Below are positions 2,528 through 32,580 of a DNA stretch of 33,272 bases, piece by piece. The notes below the pieces were generated by a model. It saw only the letters and a program-made list of their open reading frames with translations, ran no database searches and was not told the DNA's origin. The DNA lies in the NCBI GenBank assembly GCA_016342445.1, contig JAEIOF010000009.1, positions 1 to 33,272 of the forward strand. Direction: 5' to 3'. This DNA is from Verrucomicrobiota bacterium. GTDB lineage: Bacteria; Verrucomicrobiota; Kiritimatiellia; Kiritimatiellales; Tichowtungiaceae. Numbering within the stretch: the first letter of the stretch is position 1; each line of letters opens with the position of its first letter. The translations under genes and the position numbers were made by a program.

Positions 2528-2682
2528 TTTTCCAAGCCCTGGAAACCGGCAATGCCGGTCTGTCTGATTTTTTCCAAACATGAACCATTCCCGCTGGTCA
2601 TTATTTTGCTTATAGCAAAATTATCTATCGCTTCGATTTCGGGGAAAAACGCGGGATAAAAGTTTCAATGAGTGGAAAAACT

Positions 2683-3307: not shown

Positions 3308-3411
3308 GACGGAACTCCTTTGTGTTCTCCGAAGCACCCCTTGCGCTTCCAATGTTTGGAAAATATAGCATCCAATAGGTTCAAGCAACCGATTTAACAG
3401 GGCGTTTCGGC

Positions 3412-9253: not shown

Positions 9254-9278
9254 TTTCCAAGGATTGGAAATTATACAG

Positions 9279-9313
9279 CCCGGTTTTTCCAATCCTTGGA
9301 AAACCGGGTTTTT
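9279..9313 (+). terminator. Terminator of the acyl-CoA dehydrogenase gene, built around a TTCCAA-N3-TTGGAA palindrome
   Basis: CCCGGTTTTTCCAA-TCC-TTGGAAAACCGGG followed by TTTTT. Confidence 0.75.
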
Positions 9314-9955: not shown

Positions 9956-10624
9956 TTATATGAGGAGGCGAGTCAGCTTGTCGAGGGTGAGGCCTTCGAG
10001 GGTGTCAACGACGGCGTCGGCTTGGGTGAGAAATTCCGCGTCATAGCTGTTGGTGACGGCGAGAACCTTCAGCCCCGCCCCTTTGGCCGAGGCGATGCCT
10101 GCGGGCGTATCTTCAATCGCCAGGCCGGACGAAATCGTTTCCAAACCTTGGAAAATTTCGGCCAGCCGGTTCCAAGCCTTGGAATAGGGGGCGGGATCGG
10201 GCTTGCTGATGTGGGTGTCGTCGGCGGTGACGATGGTGTCGAAGGCGGTTTCGATCCCGAGTTTTCCAAGGATTGGAAGAATGTCTTCGTGCAGCGCGCC
10301 GGAGCAGATGGCGAGCGGGATGTTTCCGGAGAGAGATTTAATCAGCTCCACCGCACCGGGCAGGGCGGCGGCGCCGTCGCTCTCCAGCAGATCCTGAAAT
10401 GCGGCGGCTTTCTTTTCAATCAGGGCCGCCAGTTCATTTTTTCCAGACATTGGAAAAACGGTGCGGAAGGCGTCGCGGTCGTCGAAGCCGATGTAGGTTT
10501 CGACGTAGTCCGGCCACGAGATGGGTTTCCCCAGCGGTCCGAGCACCTTGTTGAACGCCGCCCAGTGCAACCGTTCGGAGTCCACGATGATGCCGTCAAA
10601 ATCAAATAGGATTGCTGAAATCAT
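9956..10624 (-). CDS. HAD-superfamily hydrolase (beta-phosphoglucomutase / PGPase-like)
   Basis: ILFDFDGIIVDSERLH motif I, ICSGA motif II, DTIVTADDTHISKPDPAPY; contains four palindrome copies. Confidence 0.85.
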   Translation of the reverse strand: MISAILFDFDGIIVDSERLHWAAFNKVLGPLGKPISWPDYVETYIGFDDRDAFRTVFPMSGKNELAALIEKKAAAFQDLLESDGAAALPGAVELIKSLSGNIPLAICSGALHEDILPILGKLGIETAFDTIVTADDTHISKPDPAPYSKAWNRLAEIFQGLETISSGLAIEDTPAGIASAKGAGLKVLAVTNSYDAEFLTQADAVVDTLEGLTLDKLTRLLI

Positions 10625-17578: not shown

Positions 17579-18536
17579 ATGGATCAGTCAAAACACCTTT
17601 CACCACGGTCAGTTCTGGGATCTCAGGCAGCTGGTTGAAGAGAAAGAGAAGCAGGGGCTTACCATCTCGCTGTGCCTGCCGACTCTCAACGAAGCGAAAA
17701 CCATCGGCAAAGAGATCATCCTGTTTAAATCCGAACTGATGGATCGCTACCCGCTGATCGACGAAATTGCTGTCATCGATTCCGGCTCCATCGATGACAC
17801 CCGCGAGATCGCCGCCGCCTTCGGTGCCGACGTTTATCTGTCCGCCGATATCCTTCCGCAATACGGCGAGAAAAAAGGGAAAGGCGAAAATCTCTGGAAA
17901 GCGGTTTATCAGCTCAAAGGCGACATCATCTGCTACGTCGATGCCGACATCGCCAACATCCACCCGCGCTTTGCCTATGGCCTCATCGCGCCGCTTCTCT
18001 ACCATCCCGAAATGAAATACATCAAGGCCTTCTACGACCGGCCGCTCGCCTTCTCGCAGGGCGTGCGCCCCTCCGGCGGCGGACGCGTCACCGAGATCCT
18101 CGTGCGCCCGCTCTTCTCGCTCTTCTACCCCGAACTCACCGGCCTCATTCAGCCGCTCTCCGGCGAATACGCCGTGCGCCGCGAAGTCCTCGAAGAAATT
18201 CCGTTCCCCATCGGCTACGGTGTTGAAACCTCGCACATTCTCGACGTCTATAGAAAATGGGGGATGGGAGCGTTCGGACAGACCGATCTCGACCAGCGCG
18301 TCCACCGCAATCAGGCCACACTCAGCCTCGGCAAAATGGCCTTTGGCATCCTGCGCACCTTCCTTGCCCGCTCGCAGGCCAAAGGGATGACGATCGACAT
18401 GGAACAGGTTTCCTCCATCATGCGGCAGTTCCAGGCTCACAACGACAAATACGAACAGATCGAATTTGAAATCGTCGAAGAGGAGCGCCCGCCCATGATC
18501 ACCATCCCCGAATACCGCGAAAAATTCGGGCGCTAA
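17565..18536 (+). CDS. gpgS: Glucosyl-3-phosphoglycerate synthase-like glycosyltransferase (GT81/GpgS)
   Basis: ATG at 17565 overlaps the peptidase end; ISLCLPTLNEAKTIG, AVIDSGSIDDTREIAAAFGADVY, GKGENLWKAVYQLKGDIICYVDADIANIHPRF, PLSGEYAVRREVLEEIPFPIGYGVE. Confidence 0.82.
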   Translation: MKLNKWISQNTFHHGQFWDLRQLVEEKEKQGLTISLCLPTLNEAKTIGKEIILFKSELMDRYPLIDEIAVIDSGSIDDTREIAAAFGADVYLSADILPQYGEKKGKGENLWKAVYQLKGDIICYVDADIANIHPRFAYGLIAPLLYHPEMKYIKAFYDRPLAFSQGVRPSGGGRVTEILVRPLFSLFYPELTGLIQPLSGEYAVRREVLEEIPFPIGYGVETSHILDVYRKWGMGAFGQTDLDQRVHRNQATLSLGKMAFGILRTFLARSQAKGMTIDMEQVSSIMRQFQAHNDKYEQIEFEIVEEERPPMITIPEYREKFGR

Positions 18537-19396
18537 ACCATCTCGGTGATCTGGCGCAGATCATCGACAATCGCGGTCGGTGTCAGTTTTTTGCAGCGCT
18601 TATCCTGTTCGCGCAGGCGCAGCGAGCGCTGATCACCCGCGAAGAGCACCGTGCGGCAGCCCGCCTCCGTTGCCGTCCAGATATCGTTGAGCATATCGTT
18701 TCCGACGTAGAGCGTTTTGCTGAAATCAGTTTCCAAACATTGGAAAAGTTCACCCGACGGCTTGGCATGGTGCTTTTTATAGGACCAGACGCAGAGGGCC
18801 GGATCGAATCCGAGCGCCTCGACGGATTTACCGAACAGCGCCTCGATAATCAGCGGCGTATAAAACTGGGCATTGGAGACAATCCCGAGGCGGAAGCCGC
18901 GTTTTTTTAGAAATGCAATCGTCTCAAGCGCGCCGGGCATCGGCCAGACGGGGTTGACGCGGCACTCATACTCCACCGCCAGTTGCAGAATTCTCTGCGG
19001 GTCGTCGTCCGGTTTCAAAAGTTCCAAACGGTGGAACTTTTCGATGGTTTTTTTCCAAACCCTGGAAATTTCCACCTCGGGAAATTCGATGCCGTCGTCA
19101 CGGGCGGTTTCATGCCATCGCGCAATCTCCGCCTTCATCAGAGCGGGGCCGAGTTCGCCTGCGCGCTCGAGGTCGCCCGCATAACCGGAAACAATCAGCG
19201 ACTGCGTCAACGCTTCGCCGCTGTCGGTCGCGGCGGCGGTGCCGACATCGCCCGAGCCGGAAATCAGCAGGGTGCCGTAAATGTCGAACAGGATCGTTTC
19301 GACGCCGTCGATCGGATGCAGGTCAATGATCGTTCCGGTCGGGATCGGTTCGAGCGGCGAGCTCAGGTTTTGTATGCGCTGGAGGAGTGATTTCAT
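18533..19396 (-). CDS. HAD-superfamily hydrolase; candidate glucosyl-3-phosphoglycerate phosphatase by context
   Basis: ETILFDIYGTLLIS motif I, LGIVSNAQF motif II, KHHAKPSGELF, LYVGNDMLNDIWTATEAGCRTVLFAG; convergent stop codons overlap gpgS. Confidence 0.75.
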   Translation of the reverse strand: MKSLLQRIQNLSSPLEPIPTGTIIDLHPIDGVETILFDIYGTLLISGSGDVGTAAATDSGEALTQSLIVSGYAGDLERAGELGPALMKAEIARWHETARDDGIEFPEVEISRVWKKTIEKFHRLELLKPDDDPQRILQLAVEYECRVNPVWPMPGALETIAFLKKRGFRLGIVSNAQFYTPLIIEALFGKSVEALGFDPALCVWSYKKHHAKPSGELFQCLETDFSKTLYVGNDMLNDIWTATEAGCRTVLFAGDQRSLRLREQDKRCKKLTPTAIVDDLRQITEMV

Positions 19397-20775
19397 GTTC
19401 TCAGCAGATTGAAACGTTGCGGTTGCAGAAACTGGTCGAGCAGCTTTTCGCCGTCAGCATAGCCAACGGTTCCCGGTTTGGCACTCATCAGTTTTCCATA
19501 AATTGAAAACAGATGATCGCCGTAGGCGACCGGTCCGTAGGCGCGTTCGGCCACCTGCCGGTTGGTTTCGACGGCTTCAGAAATTTGGAGCGAAAGGTCG
19601 ATCAGCGACGGGTCGGCTTTGACCGCACGGATGATTGTGCGCTGCATCTCCTCGTCGAGAATGCCGAAGTCGACTTGACCGTCTTGAACGAGTTCGGCCC
19701 GGGCCTCTTCGAAAAGAGCATCATGCCACTCGCGGCCATACGCTTCGTATGCCGCGCGCAGAGATTTTTCCAACCCTTGGAAAAATTCGTCTTCAATTTT
19801 CCAAGCATTGGAACTTAATGGAACGGGCAGGCGGTTGTAGAGGTTGGAAAGGTCGAGGCCGTGCTCCGCGAAGTCGCCGGTGATCTCCGGCAGATTGCGC
19901 CCGACCAGCGGCTTGCCCGCCAGCCATGGCTCGAGGAAGGCGAGGCCAAACCCTTCGGCGACGCTGGTGGTGATCAGCGCGTCGGCCTTCGCGATCATCT
20001 CTTCGAAGGAGCTCTTGGCTCCGGCATCGAACTCGACGTTCAGCCCGAGATCGGCGGCGAAGGCGGTCCATGCATCGTAGATCGCTTTGACCTCCGGGTT
20101 TTTCGGCGCGAGCGTGATCGCGAATTGAGCCTCCGGCATCAGCGTGCTCCACAGCAATAGCTCGCCGATGATTTTGCGGCGGATGGCCCGGCAAGGGTAG
20201 ACGTAGAGCGGTTCAGAATTCGGAGTTCGGGGTTCAGAGTTAGGGAGGGGAGAGACCGCATTGGGCAACAGGTGGAGGTTTTCTTCGGGGATTCCGGCTG
20301 CTTTCAGGAATTCAACGTCACGCTGGTTGAGGGCGGCGTAGTGGATGTGCGGGGCGACCGGGTAGAGGCGTTTTTTGAGTTTGCCGAGGTTGGAGTAGTT
20401 GTCGGGCCGTCCGTCTTCGGCGAAGTCGTGAATCTGCAACAGGATTTTCTGGCCGGTCATGGCGAGGTTGCTCACCTCCTGCGTCAGCGCCGGATTTTTT
20501 CCGAGGCAGTGGTTGTGAATATGCCAGAGATCCGGCTCGCCGCCGAATGCGCCGCGTGCTCGTTTTAAAAGTTCCAGGGGTTGGACGCTTTTGTCGGTGG
20601 AGTATCCAAGGTTTGGAAGAACCCGGATTTTTTTCTGGAGCGGCGTTGCGCCGCGGGCGGCCTCGCCGGTGAAAAACAGGCAGTGCGCCCGGTCGCCGAG
20701 CGATTCGACGGCGCGTTCGACCACGCGCGTGACGCCGCCCGGTCTGGCGTGGTAATGGACAATGGCAATTTTCAT
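19393..20775 (-). CDS. Glycosyltransferase family 4 protein
   Basis: IVHYHARPGGVTRVVERAV, LWHIHNHCLGKNPALTQEV, HLLPNAVS, ALITTSVAEGFGLAFLEPWLAGKPLVGRNLPEI. Confidence 0.82.
   Translation of the reverse strand: MKIAIVHYHARPGGVTRVVERAVESLGDRAHCLFFTGEAARGATPLQKKIRVLPNLGYSTDKSVQPLELLKRARGAFGGEPDLWHIHNHCLGKNPALTQEVSNLAMTGQKILLQIHDFAEDGRPDNYSNLGKLKKRLYPVAPHIHYAALNQRDVEFLKAAGIPEENLHLLPNAVSPLPNSEPRTPNSEPLYVYPCRAIRRKIIGELLLWSTLMPEAQFAITLAPKNPEVKAIYDAWTAFAADLGLNVEFDAGAKSSFEEMIAKADALITTSVAEGFGLAFLEPWLAGKPLVGRNLPEITGDFAEHGLDLSNLYNRLPVPLSSNAWKIEDEFFQGLEKSLRAAYEAYGREWHDALFEEARAELVQDGQVDFGILDEEMQRTIIRAVKADPSLIDLSLQISEAVETNRQVAERAYGPVAYGDHLFSIYGKLMSAKPGTVGYADGEKLLDQFLQPQRFNLLRT
20212..20246. repeat. Heptamer tandem repeat (TTCRGRR) inside the GT4 gene
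   Basis: TTCAGAA TTCGGAG TTCGGGG TTCAGAG TTAGGGA; encodes PNSEPRTPNSEP on the minus strand. Confidence 0.8.
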
Positions 20776-24954: not shown

Positions 24955-25069
24955 ATGATTCTGCCAAAATCTGATCCGTTCATGGTGAACCACTCACGGT
25001 GAACCGCACCGGGCTGGGAGAAGGAGATAGGCAGAATCATTTATAGGCAGAACGATTGGGAGAGGAAAA
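24955..25069. repeat. Dispersed inverted-repeat element, copy A
   Basis: ATGATTCTGCC (24955-24965) pairs perfectly with GGCAGAATCAT (25030-25040); tail ends GATTGGGAGAGGAAAA. Confidence 0.8.
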
Positions 25070-25071
25070 CG

Positions 25072-25348
25072 TTCCAGACCTTGGAAAAGTCAGGTAGGGC
25101 GGGCCTCGCCGAGGCCGCCGCGCTCCGCACCGGTTTCCAAACATTGGAAGAATTTCCACCACGAAAAACACGAACCACACGAAAAGTTCCAGACATTGGA
25201 AAATATTCAGCCGCAAAAACGCGCAGAAAGCGCCTGAAAGCGAAGCGATAAATAATTTCCGAAGGAAATAGTGCCGAAGGCACGGTTCAAAATTCCAGAC
25301 ATTGGAAAACGTAGACGCGATGCCTCGTTGCGGTTCCAATGCTTGGAA
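25072..25348. repeat. Cluster of five TTCCA-N5-TGGAA palindromes
   Basis: Copies at 25072, 25135, 25187, 25293 and 25334. Confidence 0.95.
25160..25186. repeat. 9-bp tandem repeat CACGAANNN
   Basis: CACGAAAAA CACGAACCA CACGAAAAG. Confidence 0.75.
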
Positions 25349-25751: not shown

Positions 25752-25877
25752 GACCCAACGTTAATTCAGTCGCCCCCGCCGCACGATTGAAAAGTTCCAG
25801 GCATTGGAAGCCGCGAGCCGCGGCGCCCGCATTGCGCTTCCAATGTCTGGAAAAATGAGCCGCAAAAGTTCCGAAAC

Positions 25878-25963
25878 ATGATTTTGCCAAAATATGATCC
25901 GCACCGGACTGAGTGGAGAAACCGGCAAAATCATTGATGGGCAAAATGATTGGGAGAGGAAAA
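25878..25963. repeat. Dispersed inverted-repeat element, copy B
   Basis: ATGATTTTGCC (25878-25888) pairs perfectly with GGCAAAATCAT (25924-25934); same tail GATTGGGAGAGGAAAA as copy A. Confidence 0.8.
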
Positions 25964-26199: not shown

Positions 26200-28989
26200 T
26201 TAGTGAGCTTGCAACCAATTTTCCCCGACGCCGCAGTCGACGATGAGGGGGACACTTAAAGGAAGAGCGTCCTGCATGAGTTTCTGGATTTCGGGGATGA
26301 GGTGTTGTTCGTCGTTATGAAGGTCGAAGACGAGTTCGTCGTGCACCTGGAGAAGTAACTTCGTTTTTTTGCCGCGCAGGAGTTTTTCGATACGGATCAT
26401 GGCGATTTTGATCATGTCGGCGGCGGAACCCTGGATGGGGGCGTTGATGGCGTAGCGTTCGGCGGCGGCGCGGACGGTTCCATTCGCCGAGTTGATGTCG
26501 CGGATGTGGCGTCGGCGTCCGGAGATGGTTTCGACGTAGCCCTTTTCTTTGGCGGTTTCGATGACGCCGTCCATGAAGGTTTTCACGGCGGGGTACTGTG
26601 CGAAATAGCTTTCGATAATTTCGGCGGCCTCTTTGCGCGGGATGCGCAGCCTTTGCGAGAGGCCGAAGGCGGAGATGCCGTAGATGATGCCGAAGTTGAC
26701 CATTTTGGCTTTGCGGCGCATGTCGGAGGTGACATCGGCGAGTTCAACGCCGAAGACGTGCGCGGCGGTGGCGGTGTGAATGTCTTCGCCGCTGACGAAG
26801 GCGGCTTTCATGTGTGCGTCGCCGCTGAGGTGCGCCATGATGCGCAGCTCAATCTGCGAATAGTCGGCGGCCAGCAGGGTGAACTCGTTTCCGCCGGCGA
26901 CGAAGGCGCGGCGGATTTCCTGTCCCTGTTCGGTGCGGACGGGAATGTTCTGGATGTTCGGGTCGCTTGAGGCCAACCGTCCGGTGGTGGTGACGGCCTG
27001 ATTAAAGGAGGTGTGGATGCGGCCGGTTTTTTTGCAGATGTCTTCGGGCAGGGCATCGACGTAGGTGTTTTTCAGTTTGGCCGCGCCGCGGTAGTCGAGG
27101 ATGGTTGCGACGATCTCGTGCTCCGCGGCCAGATGCTGCAAGACCTCTTCGTTGGTCTGGTACTGACCGGTTTTGGTTTTTTTCGGTTTGTCGACGAGGT
27201 TCATTTCGTCGAAGAGCACTTCGCCGAGCTGCTTGGGGGAGTTGAGATTGAATTCGTGACCCGCCAGTTCGTAGACCTTTTTTTCCTGCTCCGCGATTTC
27301 GCCAGCTAGCTTGATCGAAATTTCGCCGAGCGCGGCGGTGTCGAGCGCAATGCCGTTGGCTTCCATTTCAACCAGCACCGGAATCAGCGGACATTCGATT
27401 TCATCGAAAACTTTTTTGAGTTCACGCTTCTTAAGTTGCGGCTCGAGAATTTCGCGCAACTGCAGGGTGACGTCGGCGTCTTCGCAGGCGTAGTCGCACA
27501 GTTTGTCGAGCGGCACGGTCGTCATCGAAACCTGTTCGCTCTTTTTCTCTCCAATCAGCGCGGTGATCGGAACGGGCGCGTAGCCGAGGTGGGTGCCGGC
27601 CAGCTTGTCGAGTCCGTGCCTTTGATCGGGGTCGAGCAGGTAGTGGGCGATCATCGTGTCGAAGAGTTTGCCTTTCACCTCAACCCCCGCTTCGCGAAGC
27701 ATGGCGATGTCGAATTTGAGGTTGTGTCCGGTCTTTTCAATGGTTTCGTCCGCAAACAGCGGCACGAAAAGCTCCAGCGCTTTTTTCAGCTCCTCGTCGT
27801 CCGGCGGGAGCGTCACATACCAAGCCTCGTGCGGTTTCACCGCAAAGGAGATGCCGATCAGTTTGTCGGCGCGCGGGTCGAGCCCCGTCGTTTCGGTATC
27901 AAAACAGAAGGAGGCGTTTTTCCGAAGGTTGGAAACCAAAGCGGTGCGTTCTTCCAAGGTTTGGACGAGGTGGTAGCGGTGCTTTACATCGGCGAGGGTT
28001 TTGTAGGCTTTTTCCACGGGCTCCTCCGGCGCGGGCGCATTGGCGGCAGCGAAGTCGAACAGATCGCCCTGTCCCTCTTTGGGCGGGGGCGGCGCGAAGC
28101 TGGCGGCGGGGGCGGGTGCTTTGCCGAACAGCCGTTTGGAGAAGGAGGTGAATTCGAATTCGGAGAAGAGGGCGGAGAGCTTGTCCTCGTCGAACTTGCC
28201 GCGGATCAGTCCGGCGGGATCGAGGTCGACCGGAACCTCGGTGTGAATGGTGACGAGCCGTTTACATAGATGTACGCGCTCGACGTTGGCCTCGATATTT
28301 TCCTTTTGTTTGCCCTTTAGCTCGCCGGTGTGCGCGAGCAGATTTTCAATCGAGCCGTACTGCGCAATCAGTTTTTGCGCGGTTTTGGGGCCGATGCCGG
28401 GCACGCCGGGAATATTATCGGCGGCGTCGCCCGCCAGTCCGAGGATGTCGATGACCTGCTCGACCTTTTCGATGCCCCACTGCTCAAGCACTTCTTTGAC
28501 GCCGAGCACTTCGGCGTCCGCTCCTTTTTTGGCGGGTTTCATCATAAAGGTGTGTTCGTCGACGAGCTGGGCGAAATCTTTATCCGGCGTGACCATGTAG
28601 GTGTCAAACCCCTCTTTTTCGGCGCGGCGGGCGAGGGTGCCGATGATGTCGTCGGCCTCGAAGCCCTGTTTGGTCAGCACGGGAATATTGAAGGCGGCCA
28701 GGAATTCTTTGATTTGCGGGACGGCGGCGCGGATTTCCTCGGGGGTTTCTTCGCGCTGCGCTTTGTATTCGGGAAATTCATCGTGCCGGAATGTTTTTCC
28801 CGAGACGTCGAAGGCGACGGCGATGTGGGTCGGATCCTGCTTATCGATGATCTCGAGCAGGGCGTTGATAAACCCGAACACGGCGGAGACGTTCTTCCCC
28901 TTCGAGTTGATCATCGGGTTGCGCATGAAGGCGAAATAGGAACGGTAGACCAGCGCCATCCCGTCGAGGAGAAATAATTTTTTGCTCAT
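26200..28989 (-). CDS. polA: DNA polymerase I with 5' nuclease, 3'-5' exonuclease and polymerase domains
   Basis: LFLLDGMALVYRSYFAF, GVPGIGPKTAQKLI, FCFDTETTGLD, AADYSQIELRIMAHLSGD, RRKAKMVNFGIIYGISAFGLSQRL, LQVHDELVFDL. Confidence 0.97.
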   Translation of the reverse strand: MSKKLFLLDGMALVYRSYFAFMRNPMINSKGKNVSAVFGFINALLEIIDKQDPTHIAVAFDVSGKTFRHDEFPEYKAQREETPEEIRAAVPQIKEFLAAFNIPVLTKQGFEADDIIGTLARRAEKEGFDTYMVTPDKDFAQLVDEHTFMMKPAKKGADAEVLGVKEVLEQWGIEKVEQVIDILGLAGDAADNIPGVPGIGPKTAQKLIAQYGSIENLLAHTGELKGKQKENIEANVERVHLCKRLVTIHTEVPVDLDPAGLIRGKFDEDKLSALFSEFEFTSFSKRLFGKAPAPAASFAPPPPKEGQGDLFDFAAANAPAPEEPVEKAYKTLADVKHRYHLVQTLEERTALVSNLRKNASFCFDTETTGLDPRADKLIGISFAVKPHEAWYVTLPPDDEELKKALELFVPLFADETIEKTGHNLKFDIAMLREAGVEVKGKLFDTMIAHYLLDPDQRHGLDKLAGTHLGYAPVPITALIGEKKSEQVSMTTVPLDKLCDYACEDADVTLQLREILEPQLKKRELKKVFDEIECPLIPVLVEMEANGIALDTAALGEISIKLAGEIAEQEKKVYELAGHEFNLNSPKQLGEVLFDEMNLVDKPKKTKTGQYQTNEEVLQHLAAEHEIVATILDYRGAAKLKNTYVDALPEDICKKTGRIHTSFNQAVTTTGRLASSDPNIQNIPVRTEQGQEIRRAFVAGGNEFTLLAADYSQIELRIMAHLSGDAHMKAAFVSGEDIHTATAAHVFGVELADVTSDMRRKAKMVNFGIIYGISAFGLSQRLRIPRKEAAEIIESYFAQYPAVKTFMDGVIETAKEKGYVETISGRRRHIRDINSANGTVRAAAERYAINAPIQGSAADMIKIAMIRIEKLLRGKKTKLLLQVHDELVFDLHNDEQHLIPEIQKLMQDALPLSVPLIVDCGVGENWLQAH

Positions 28990-29165
28990 GGGGCGAAAGC
29001 CTAATGGCTTTCGGGGCGAAGGTCAAAGGTGTCTGAAGGTCGAATGTCGTGAGGGGACTTCCAACCCTTGGAAAAACGGCTTCAGGGGCAGCTTGGTCAA
29101 GCCGCCCGCATAAGATGCGGGGGTTTCTCTTGCCCGGAGAGGGGGTTTCCAGTACAAAGTGCGCA

Positions 29166-31155: not shown

Positions 31156-31302
31156 ACGCTCTTCGCCCCCTTCTTCCGTTCCCGGGAACGTGCTCATTTT
31201 TCCAACCTCTGGAACGTTTCAGTTCATTTTTTGCCGCTGCGCTTCTTTTTGAAATACAAAAAGCACTTTCGGAATACCTCAGGTCCAAACATTGGAAACT
31301 CG

Positions 31303-32580
31303 CTACGCCAGGACGAAGTAACGAAGCCAGAGGTAGATCATGGCGAGGAAGACGGACTGGATCATGAAGGGGAAGCCCCATTTCATGAAGTGCATGAAGG
31401 TGATTTTGTAGCCGTTTCGTTCGCCGATTTTGCTGACAACCACGTTGGCCGAGGCCCCGATAATCGTTCCGTTGCCGCCAAGACAGGCGCCGAGCGCGAG
31501 CGCCCAGAAGAGCGGGTTGTCGCCGGTCGGCGCAACGCCGGTATCGACGAGCATTTTCTGGATGAGCGGCATCATGACGATGACAAACGGAATGTTGTCG
31601 AGTACGGCGGAGAGCAGGGCGCTGCCCCAGAGCACCACCATGGTGGTGAGCAACAAGTTGTCGCCGCAGAGGTTGAGCATGCCGTTCGCCAGCAGGTCGA
31701 TGACGCCGTTATGCTCCAGTGCGCCGATGATGATGAACAGCCCGATGAAAAACAGGATGGCGTCCCACTCGACGTGGCGGAGCATTTTTTCGCTCTTGGT
31801 GCGGCAGGTCAGTAACATGGCCCCCATCCCGGCGAGAGCGATGACGCCCGGCGGTACCCCGAGGTGATGATGGGTGAAGAAGCCGATGAAGATGAAGCCG
31901 AAGACAATGAGCGAGCGTTTCATTTTTTTCGCGTCGCGGATGGCCAGTTTCGGGCAGGCCTCAATGACGCGGGTGCGCACTTGATCGGGGACGTGAAGAT
32001 ATTTCCTCATCACGAAGTAGGCGGTGATGATAAACACCGCACCCATCACCAGAACGCCGGGGCTCAGGTGGACGATGAAGTCGTTGAAGGTGAGTTCGGC
32101 GCGTGAGCCGATGATGATATTGGGCGGATCTCCAATGAGCGTGGCGGTGCCGCCAATATTGGAGGCGAGCGCTTCGAGAATCAGGAACGGAAGTGTCGGC
32201 AGTTCCAGCAGCTGGGTGATCAGAATGGTGACCGGAGCCAGCAGGATGATGGTGGTGACGTTGTCGAGCAACGCAGAGAAGACCATGGTGACGAGAAGTA
32301 GCGTGATCAGGATCGGCGCGGCGCGGCCCTTCATGGCTTTGGCGACGGAGATGGCCACCCATTCGAAGAAGCCGGTTTCGGCCAGAATGGCGACGCAGGT
32401 CATCATCCCGACGAGCAGAAAGATGACGTTGAGGTCGATGGCGCTCATCGCGCTTTCAAAGTCGATCAGCCCGCCGATGATGACGGCGGAGGCCCCCAGT
32501 ATGGCGGCAACAGATTTCTCGACTTTTTCGGAAGCGAGCAGGATATAAACCAGAACAAAGATGACAATTGAAGCGATCAT
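31303..32580 (-). CDS. ArsB/NhaD-type ion transporter (SLC13/IT superfamily permease)
   Basis: LDNVTTIILLAPVTILITQLL, EALASNIGGTATLIGDPPNIIIGS, LLSAVLDNIPFVIVMMPLI, GNGTIIGASANVVVS. Confidence 0.88.
   Translation of the reverse strand: MIASIVIFVLVYILLASEKVEKSVAAILGASAVIIGGLIDFESAMSAIDLNVIFLLVGMMTCVAILAETGFFEWVAISVAKAMKGRAAPILITLLLVTMVFSALLDNVTTIILLAPVTILITQLLELPTLPFLILEALASNIGGTATLIGDPPNIIIGSRAELTFNDFIVHLSPGVLVMGAVFIITAYFVMRKYLHVPDQVRTRVIEACPKLAIRDAKKMKRSLIVFGFIFIGFFTHHHLGVPPGVIALAGMGAMLLTCRTKSEKMLRHVEWDAILFFIGLFIIIGALEHNGVIDLLANGMLNLCGDNLLLTTMVVLWGSALLSAVLDNIPFVIVMMPLIQKMLVDTGVAPTGDNPLFWALALGACLGGNGTIIGASANVVVSKIGERNGYKITFMHFMKWGFPFMIQSVFLAMIYLWLRYFVLA

Follow-up and report, generated by a model that had tools for sequence, protein, structure and literature searches.

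Four palindromes in a HAD phosphatase gene

We analysed a stretch of 33,272 nucleotides (the window) from a bacterium of the order Kiritimatiellales. On its minus strand lies a 222-aa open reading frame (ORF) that a profile match assigns to the HAD-superfamily phosphatases (Pfam HAD_2, E 4.4e-30). Orthologues of this ORF were found in 42 of 43 genomes of the order, and the AlphaFold model of its product has a pLDDT of 92. An earlier note, made from the letters of the DNA, had claimed that the ORF contains four palindromes that encode the minus-strand peptides FQGLE, SKAWN, PILGK and FPMSGK and that together occupy all three reading phases. We found all four to be exact copies of TTCCANNNNNTGGAA and to encode the peptides named; offsets from the start codon place them in phases 0, 2, 1 and 1, such that every phase is used and two copies share one. 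The gene and its palindromes are listed here, with distances also given in helical turns:

9956..10624, minus strand: HAD-superfamily phosphatase ORF, 222 aa.
10139..10153: palindrome TTCCAAACCTTGGAA; sense peptide FQGLE, phase 0; in a loop after helix 145-157 of the model.
10170..10184: palindrome TTCCAAGCCTTGGAA; sense peptide SKAWN, phase 2; in a helix; 31 bp (2.97 turns) from the copy at 10139.
10264..10278: palindrome TTCCAAGGATTGGAA; sense peptide LPILGK, phase 1; in a helix; 94 bp (9.00 turns) from the copy at 10170.
10441..10455: palindrome TTCCAGACATTGGAA; sense peptide FPMSGK, phase 1; in a loop; 177 bp (16.95 turns) from the copy at 10264.

The earlier note had raised a location in loops as a possibility, which holds for two of the sites; the other two are in helices, and placement is thus not restricted to loops. 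Ten of 12 other orthologues in the genus keep the palindrome at 10264 with zero or one mismatch. At 10441, the arms are kept across the genus while the centre varies. Most members of the genus share two of the HAD sites, at an unvarying distance of 177 bp and with differing centres.

The window as a whole contains 22 exact and 7 one-mismatch copies. These 29 copies with at most one mismatch compare with 1.24 +/- 1.07 in shuffled sequences (maximum 4). Copies other than those in the HAD gene are:

2530..2544: lone exact palindrome.
2663..2677: lone one-mismatch palindrome.
3347..3361: lone exact palindrome.
9255..9301: intergenic exact pair, 32 bp apart.
18731..18745: lone exact palindrome, in ORF 18533-19396.
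19022..19067: exact pair, 31 bp apart, within the same ORF (18533-19396), a second HAD-like one.
19494..19508: lone one-mismatch palindrome.
19768..19813: exact pair, 31 bp apart, within ORF 19393-20775.
20572..20618: one-mismatch pair, 32 bp apart.
25072..25348: five exact palindromes with spacings of 63, 52, 106 and 41 bp (6.03, 4.98, 10.15 and 3.93 turns).
25795..25852: exact pair, 43 bp (4.12 turns) apart.
27920..27966: one-mismatch pair, 32 bp apart, inside the DNA polymerase I gene (26200-28989, minus strand).
29059..29073: lone exact palindrome.
31200..31297: exact palindrome at 31200 and one-mismatch palindrome at 31283, 83 bp (7.95 turns) apart.

Three other features of the window were recorded alongside these copies. 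A 40-base direct repeat, 88% identical between its two instances (25030-25069 and 25924-25963), flanks the palindrome cluster. A GC-rich second 15-bp dyad (ACCGGCAATGCCGGT, GTCGGCGCTGCCGAC, GCAGGCTGAGCCTGC) often directly adjoins the TTCCA dyad in 42-bp pairs, and was seen at 2545-2559 of the window and in the linkers of 42-bp pairs on contigs of genome G000. The ORF at 31303-32580 (minus strand) encodes a transporter whose best match is the magnetosome MamN model, at a score far under the cut-off of that model; it is probably an ordinary anion or arsenite-type transporter.

Abundance within the genome and the class

The genome from which the window comes (2,085,568 bases, or 2.09 Mb, in 182 contigs) contains 1,091 exact copies of TTCCA-N5-TGGAA, against 3 copies of a control, the same pattern read backwards. 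We calculated spacing and gene statistics from a 735-kb sample of this 2.09 Mb, with gene calls from a simple codon-score script. The sample contains 378 exact copies, where 2.5 would be expected from the frequencies of the arms, and among all 5-bp dyads with gaps of 0 to 12 the TTCCA dyad and its in-register extensions stand far above the rest. The extended consensus is approximately TTTTCCA-R-N-S-N-Y-TGGAAAA, with a central C or G. About half of the copies in the sample (182 of 378) lie wholly inside predicted genes. Sites are enriched between convergent genes, and copies show no strand preference.

Within the phylum, the TTCCA dyad is confined to one class, where its distribution is patchy, from approximately 0 to 2,297 copies per genome. 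Pairs of sites 29-33 bp apart occur in 94 of 240 genomes of this class, with a maximum of 1,349 in a single genome, and the control pattern never forms such pairs; among the matches listed, nearly all are 31 or 32 bp apart. Since only 7 viral stretches with a 31-bp pair were detected among 2.9 million viral contigs, no phage carrier emerged. We also observed solitary 31/32-bp pairs in two nearly site-free genomes (loci L240 in G059 and L245 in G343), close to ORFs that by eye are nucleotidyltransferase-like and RhuM-like. The presence of solitary pairs near such ORFs in almost site-free genomes suggests transfer.

Spacing between copies follows the helical repeat of DNA

Distances between exact copies in the 735-kb sample fall at 22, 30-32, 41-42, 52, 62-63, 73, 82-84, 93-95, 105 and 115 bp, and so on. 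A period of 10.44 bp at zero phase fits best (power 134.8, from the 171 pairs that are 18-150 bp apart), and the signal persists at pair distances of 250-500 bp, where its power is still 20.2. Because pairs within clusters are not fully independent, we added tests restricted to neighbours. Phasing was detected both for neighbours that share a gene (n = 71, power 50) and for those between genes (n = 125, power 90). Of 160 nearest-neighbour distances of 18-420 bp between exact copies, 89% deviate from a whole number of turns by no more than 0.15 turn, compared with 30% by chance. One-mismatch copies share the same helical phase.

Codon phasing was considered and rejected, as the period-3 signal is weak and the 10.44-bp signal strong; a period-3 excess among intergenic neighbours is due to the dominant spacings of 22 and 31 bp. 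Spacings thus follow 10.44 bp and not 3 bp, which upholds the view of the earlier note that no codon or protein motif explains the copies. Since the spacing in helical turns is not a multiple of three, the copies in the HAD gene land in different reading frames; their mixed frames track the DNA helix rather than codons. We likewise rejected the possibility that the 31-bp pair is a single mobile unit, since the linker sequences are unrelated.

Across 58 of the 94 genomes that have such 29-33 bp pairs, we counted 7,250 of these in-phase pairs and 46 out-of-phase pairs (34-38 bp); when one genus (g2) is left out, 7,092 and 5 remain. In genus g2 (G228), sites are abundant and phasing is weak; hence, phasing is not universal. 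Some dyads of this genus (G228, G160) form clusters with a spacing of 17 bp, a geometry unlike that of the rest of the class. In a sample of genome G000, A/T steps in the surroundings of isolated dyads have maxima at intervals of 10.4 bp, to an extent reached by 0 of 400 shifted controls. The phasing of A/T steps around isolated sites was not significant in G081, G318 or G228.

Origin and conservation of coding copies

The earlier note had attributed the copies to selection or insertion at the level of DNA or RNA. Comparison of the HAD gene with relatives in the order at first suggested insertion of a 15-mer or of a 24-bp pair. The outgroups led us to reject this: HAD homologues from Geobacter, Geomonas, Lentisphaerae and Planctomycetes have the long form of the loop in which SKAWN and FQGLE lie here, and the loop is therefore of ancestral length in the gene studied here. 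We conclude that the relatives in the order lost the loop, and that the HAD dyads arose by substitution. At the FQGLE site (10139), the outgroups have an FPG-type sequence of unchanged length. The other two sites were also substituted in place, and there is a net deletion near FPMSGK. Palindrome-free homologues that conserve FQGLE or SKAWN at the same positions, which according to the earlier note would speak against a DNA- or RNA-level signal, did not occur. One HAD orthologue (L017, in G316) has an insert of ~26 residues in the same loop as the SKAWN/FQGLE pair of the window.

Insertion is thus not supported as an origin, and the DNA-level signal stands, since the arms of coding copies are kept between species better than the centre or the flanks. 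Gap-free alignments to the orthologues of two congeneric species (the relatives compared being species representatives) give an identity of 87-92% for the arms, 58-66% for the centre and 70-72% for the flanks. Of 52 coding copies, 29 are kept exactly, against ~10% of control windows that keep the same ten positions. In 45 of 53 orthologue comparisons of coding sites there is no indel within eight residues, and small indels lie nearby in the remaining 8. Selection at the RNA level was not borne out: among imperfect dyads, the sense strand has the G-U form in 15 cases and the A-C mismatch form in 18.

One lineage has switched its half-site

In genome G234, TTCCA sites number only 29. A sample of this genome showed TTACG-N5-CGTAA dyads, and a genome-wide count gave 190 copies of this dyad, against 0 for the control. 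The sister genome G265 has 35, and other genomes of the class have 0-6. In G234, the TTACG-N5-CGTAA copies are arranged in 31-bp arrays, the same as those of the TTCCA dyad; hence, the geometry was kept while the sequence changed. We conclude that G234 has largely switched its half-site to TTACG-N5-CGTAA.

A putative reader protein

From the abundance of the sites, their dyad symmetry and helical spacing, the conservation of their arms in coding DNA, the way they arose in the HAD gene, by substitution, and the one lineage with a switched half-site, we infer that the palindromes are rather likely to be genome-wide sites for a putative dimeric DNA-binding protein that acts cooperatively on one face of the helix. 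Such a sequence-specific protein would bind each copy as a symmetric dimer, and neighbouring dimers would touch or be bridged only if they sit on the same helix face. A requirement for same-face contact would hold the distance between copies to two, three, four or more full turns, the preferred spacing being three turns (31/32 bp). Arrays of bound dimers may bend, wrap or loop the DNA, as a global architectural protein would. Conservation of the sites could also come from a drive process that copies them.

Dimers of the Lrp family bind 13-17 bp dyads that are two or three helical turns apart, and wrap DNA (PMC2995911). The operators of Lrp/AsnC proteins (e.g. that of Ss-LrpB, TTGCAAAATTTGCAA) are similar to the sites described here in having a 15-bp dyad and in placing neighbouring sites on one face at a distance of two or three turns (PMC2995911, PMC4046817); the geometry here is likewise that of a 15-bp dyad with whole-turn spacing, with a period of 10.44 bp. 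Binding of dimers and wrapping of DNA are known for those operators (PMC2995911, PMC4046817), whereas here they are proposed. Moreover, Lrp arrays serve few promoters, whereas the dyads here number in the hundreds to thousands, and coding DNA contains about half of the copies.

A resident Lrp-family protein was rejected as the reader, since neither its presence nor its recognition helix tracks the sites. Most genomes of the class have an Lrp-family gene, PF01037 is mostly single-copy whether a genome is rich in sites or free of them and shows no co-variation with sites, and the recognition helix varies within the genus while the site is constant and does not stand out in G234. AbrB of Bacillus is a global regulator with a bipartite motif of the TGGNA type. 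The site described here is also bipartite and of the TGGNA type, but an AbrB/MazE-type reader was rejected because PF04014 has no match in the site-rich genomes G000 and G081 (the latter a single contig), and also none in G130 and G248. We also discarded the possibility that solitary pairs mark the promoter of the gene for the binder itself, since the ORFs that flank them are of differing kinds. A protein for which more than 1,000 such sites are conserved would, as far as we know, lack a close precedent.

Alternative explanations

It is unlikely that the sites are analogues of uptake sequences, with the natural-transformation machinery recognising the dyad and copies accumulating by substitution in all frames, driven by preferential uptake and recombination. 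Such sites would share with the DUS of Neisseriaceae their copy number, their placement in genes, their conservation and a dialect-like switch of motif: DUS occur in approximately a thousand or more copies, including in genes, and have dialects, and in some species they form paired dyads, of which the overlapping dyad DUS pairs of Simonsiella muelleri are suggestive of dimeric recognition (PMC3630211). Overrepresentation extends genome-wide through coding and intergenic DNA, as for DUS, and the solitary pairs held by otherwise site-poor genomes fit uptake as well. However, uptake does not need helical phasing, and the spacing here is strongly phased; helical phasing is not known for DUS, and the dyad described here is gapped. 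We detected ComEC-type genes in 222 of the 240 genomes, just as often where sites are absent; being near universal in the class, ComEC does not discriminate for a role in uptake. Across the class, the ComEC-domain open frame is ~520-680 aa in some families and at least 760 aa in others.

We assign a low probability to a mechanism similar to that of HIP1 in cyanobacteria, in which a DNA methyltransferase or repair system would recognise the whole dyad or a portion of it and maintain the sequence. The HIP1 palindrome likewise occurs genome-wide, and in some lineages it has been replaced by alternate palindromes with cognate methyltransferases (PMC4390886), which recalls the switch in G234. Unlike the gapped dyad, HIP1 is a contiguous octamer tied to a methyltransferase, and PMC4390886 makes no mention of helical spacing, whereas phasing is the strongest feature of the sites described here.

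Insertion of mobile palindromic elements into genes (of the Rickettsia palindromic element, MITE or REP type) is very improbable. Rickettsia palindromic elements are short dispersed palindromes that lie in genes. The many copies described here, some of them within genes, and the small indels near a minority of coding sites would be consistent with such an origin, and in being short, dispersed and palindromic the sites do resemble both these and REP/RAYT elements. However, elements of the Rickettsia or MITE type insert into genes, and the HAD loop is of ancestral length, with its copies substituted in place; most orthologue comparisons have no nearby indel, the linkers of 31-bp pairs are unrelated, and insertion does not predict helical spacing. 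REPs rarely overlap coding regions (PMC12306157), a location at odds with that of the half of the copies that lie inside genes. A RAYT transposase was rejected as a partner because its occurrence is not linked to the sites: PF01797 is absent from the site-bearing genomes G151 and G322 and present in site-free genomes.

That the sites are RNA hairpins under selection in transcripts, such as terminators or stabilisers, is hardly credible: each copy can fold, weakly (-4.2 to -6.5 kcal/mol), and the enrichment between convergent genes would fit, but spacing by the DNA helix is meaningless in RNA, roughly half of all copies are genic, and neither strand form of the imperfect dyads is preferred. No Rfam family was matched in the window.

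Significance

Dispersed genome-wide repeats are well known, as are helically phased operators at single promoters. To our knowledge, no known system joins abundance and lineage switching of the DUS or HIP1 type with the geometry of Lrp operators. In the literature that we searched, we found no description of the TTCCA-N5-TGGAA site, and no whole genome in which conserved sites in such numbers (hundreds, genic in about half of the cases) share one helix face over hundreds of base pairs.

Taking the sites to be bound by a cooperative dimeric protein, we tentatively raise the possibility that this class carries a sequence-written chromatin lattice, in which conserved, phased dyads would position a cooperative architectural protein, and in which the half-site code could be rewritten with the geometry kept. 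The lattice would take in genic and intergenic dyads alike, hundreds to thousands in each genome, all conserved and helically phased. If a cooperative protein does explain the sites, a second, helix-periodic code shapes protein-coding sequence in this class, and the spacing of the sites would be a natural readout of the helical repeat (10.44 bp). If true, the sites would also reveal how changes in site specificity and in the protein go together.
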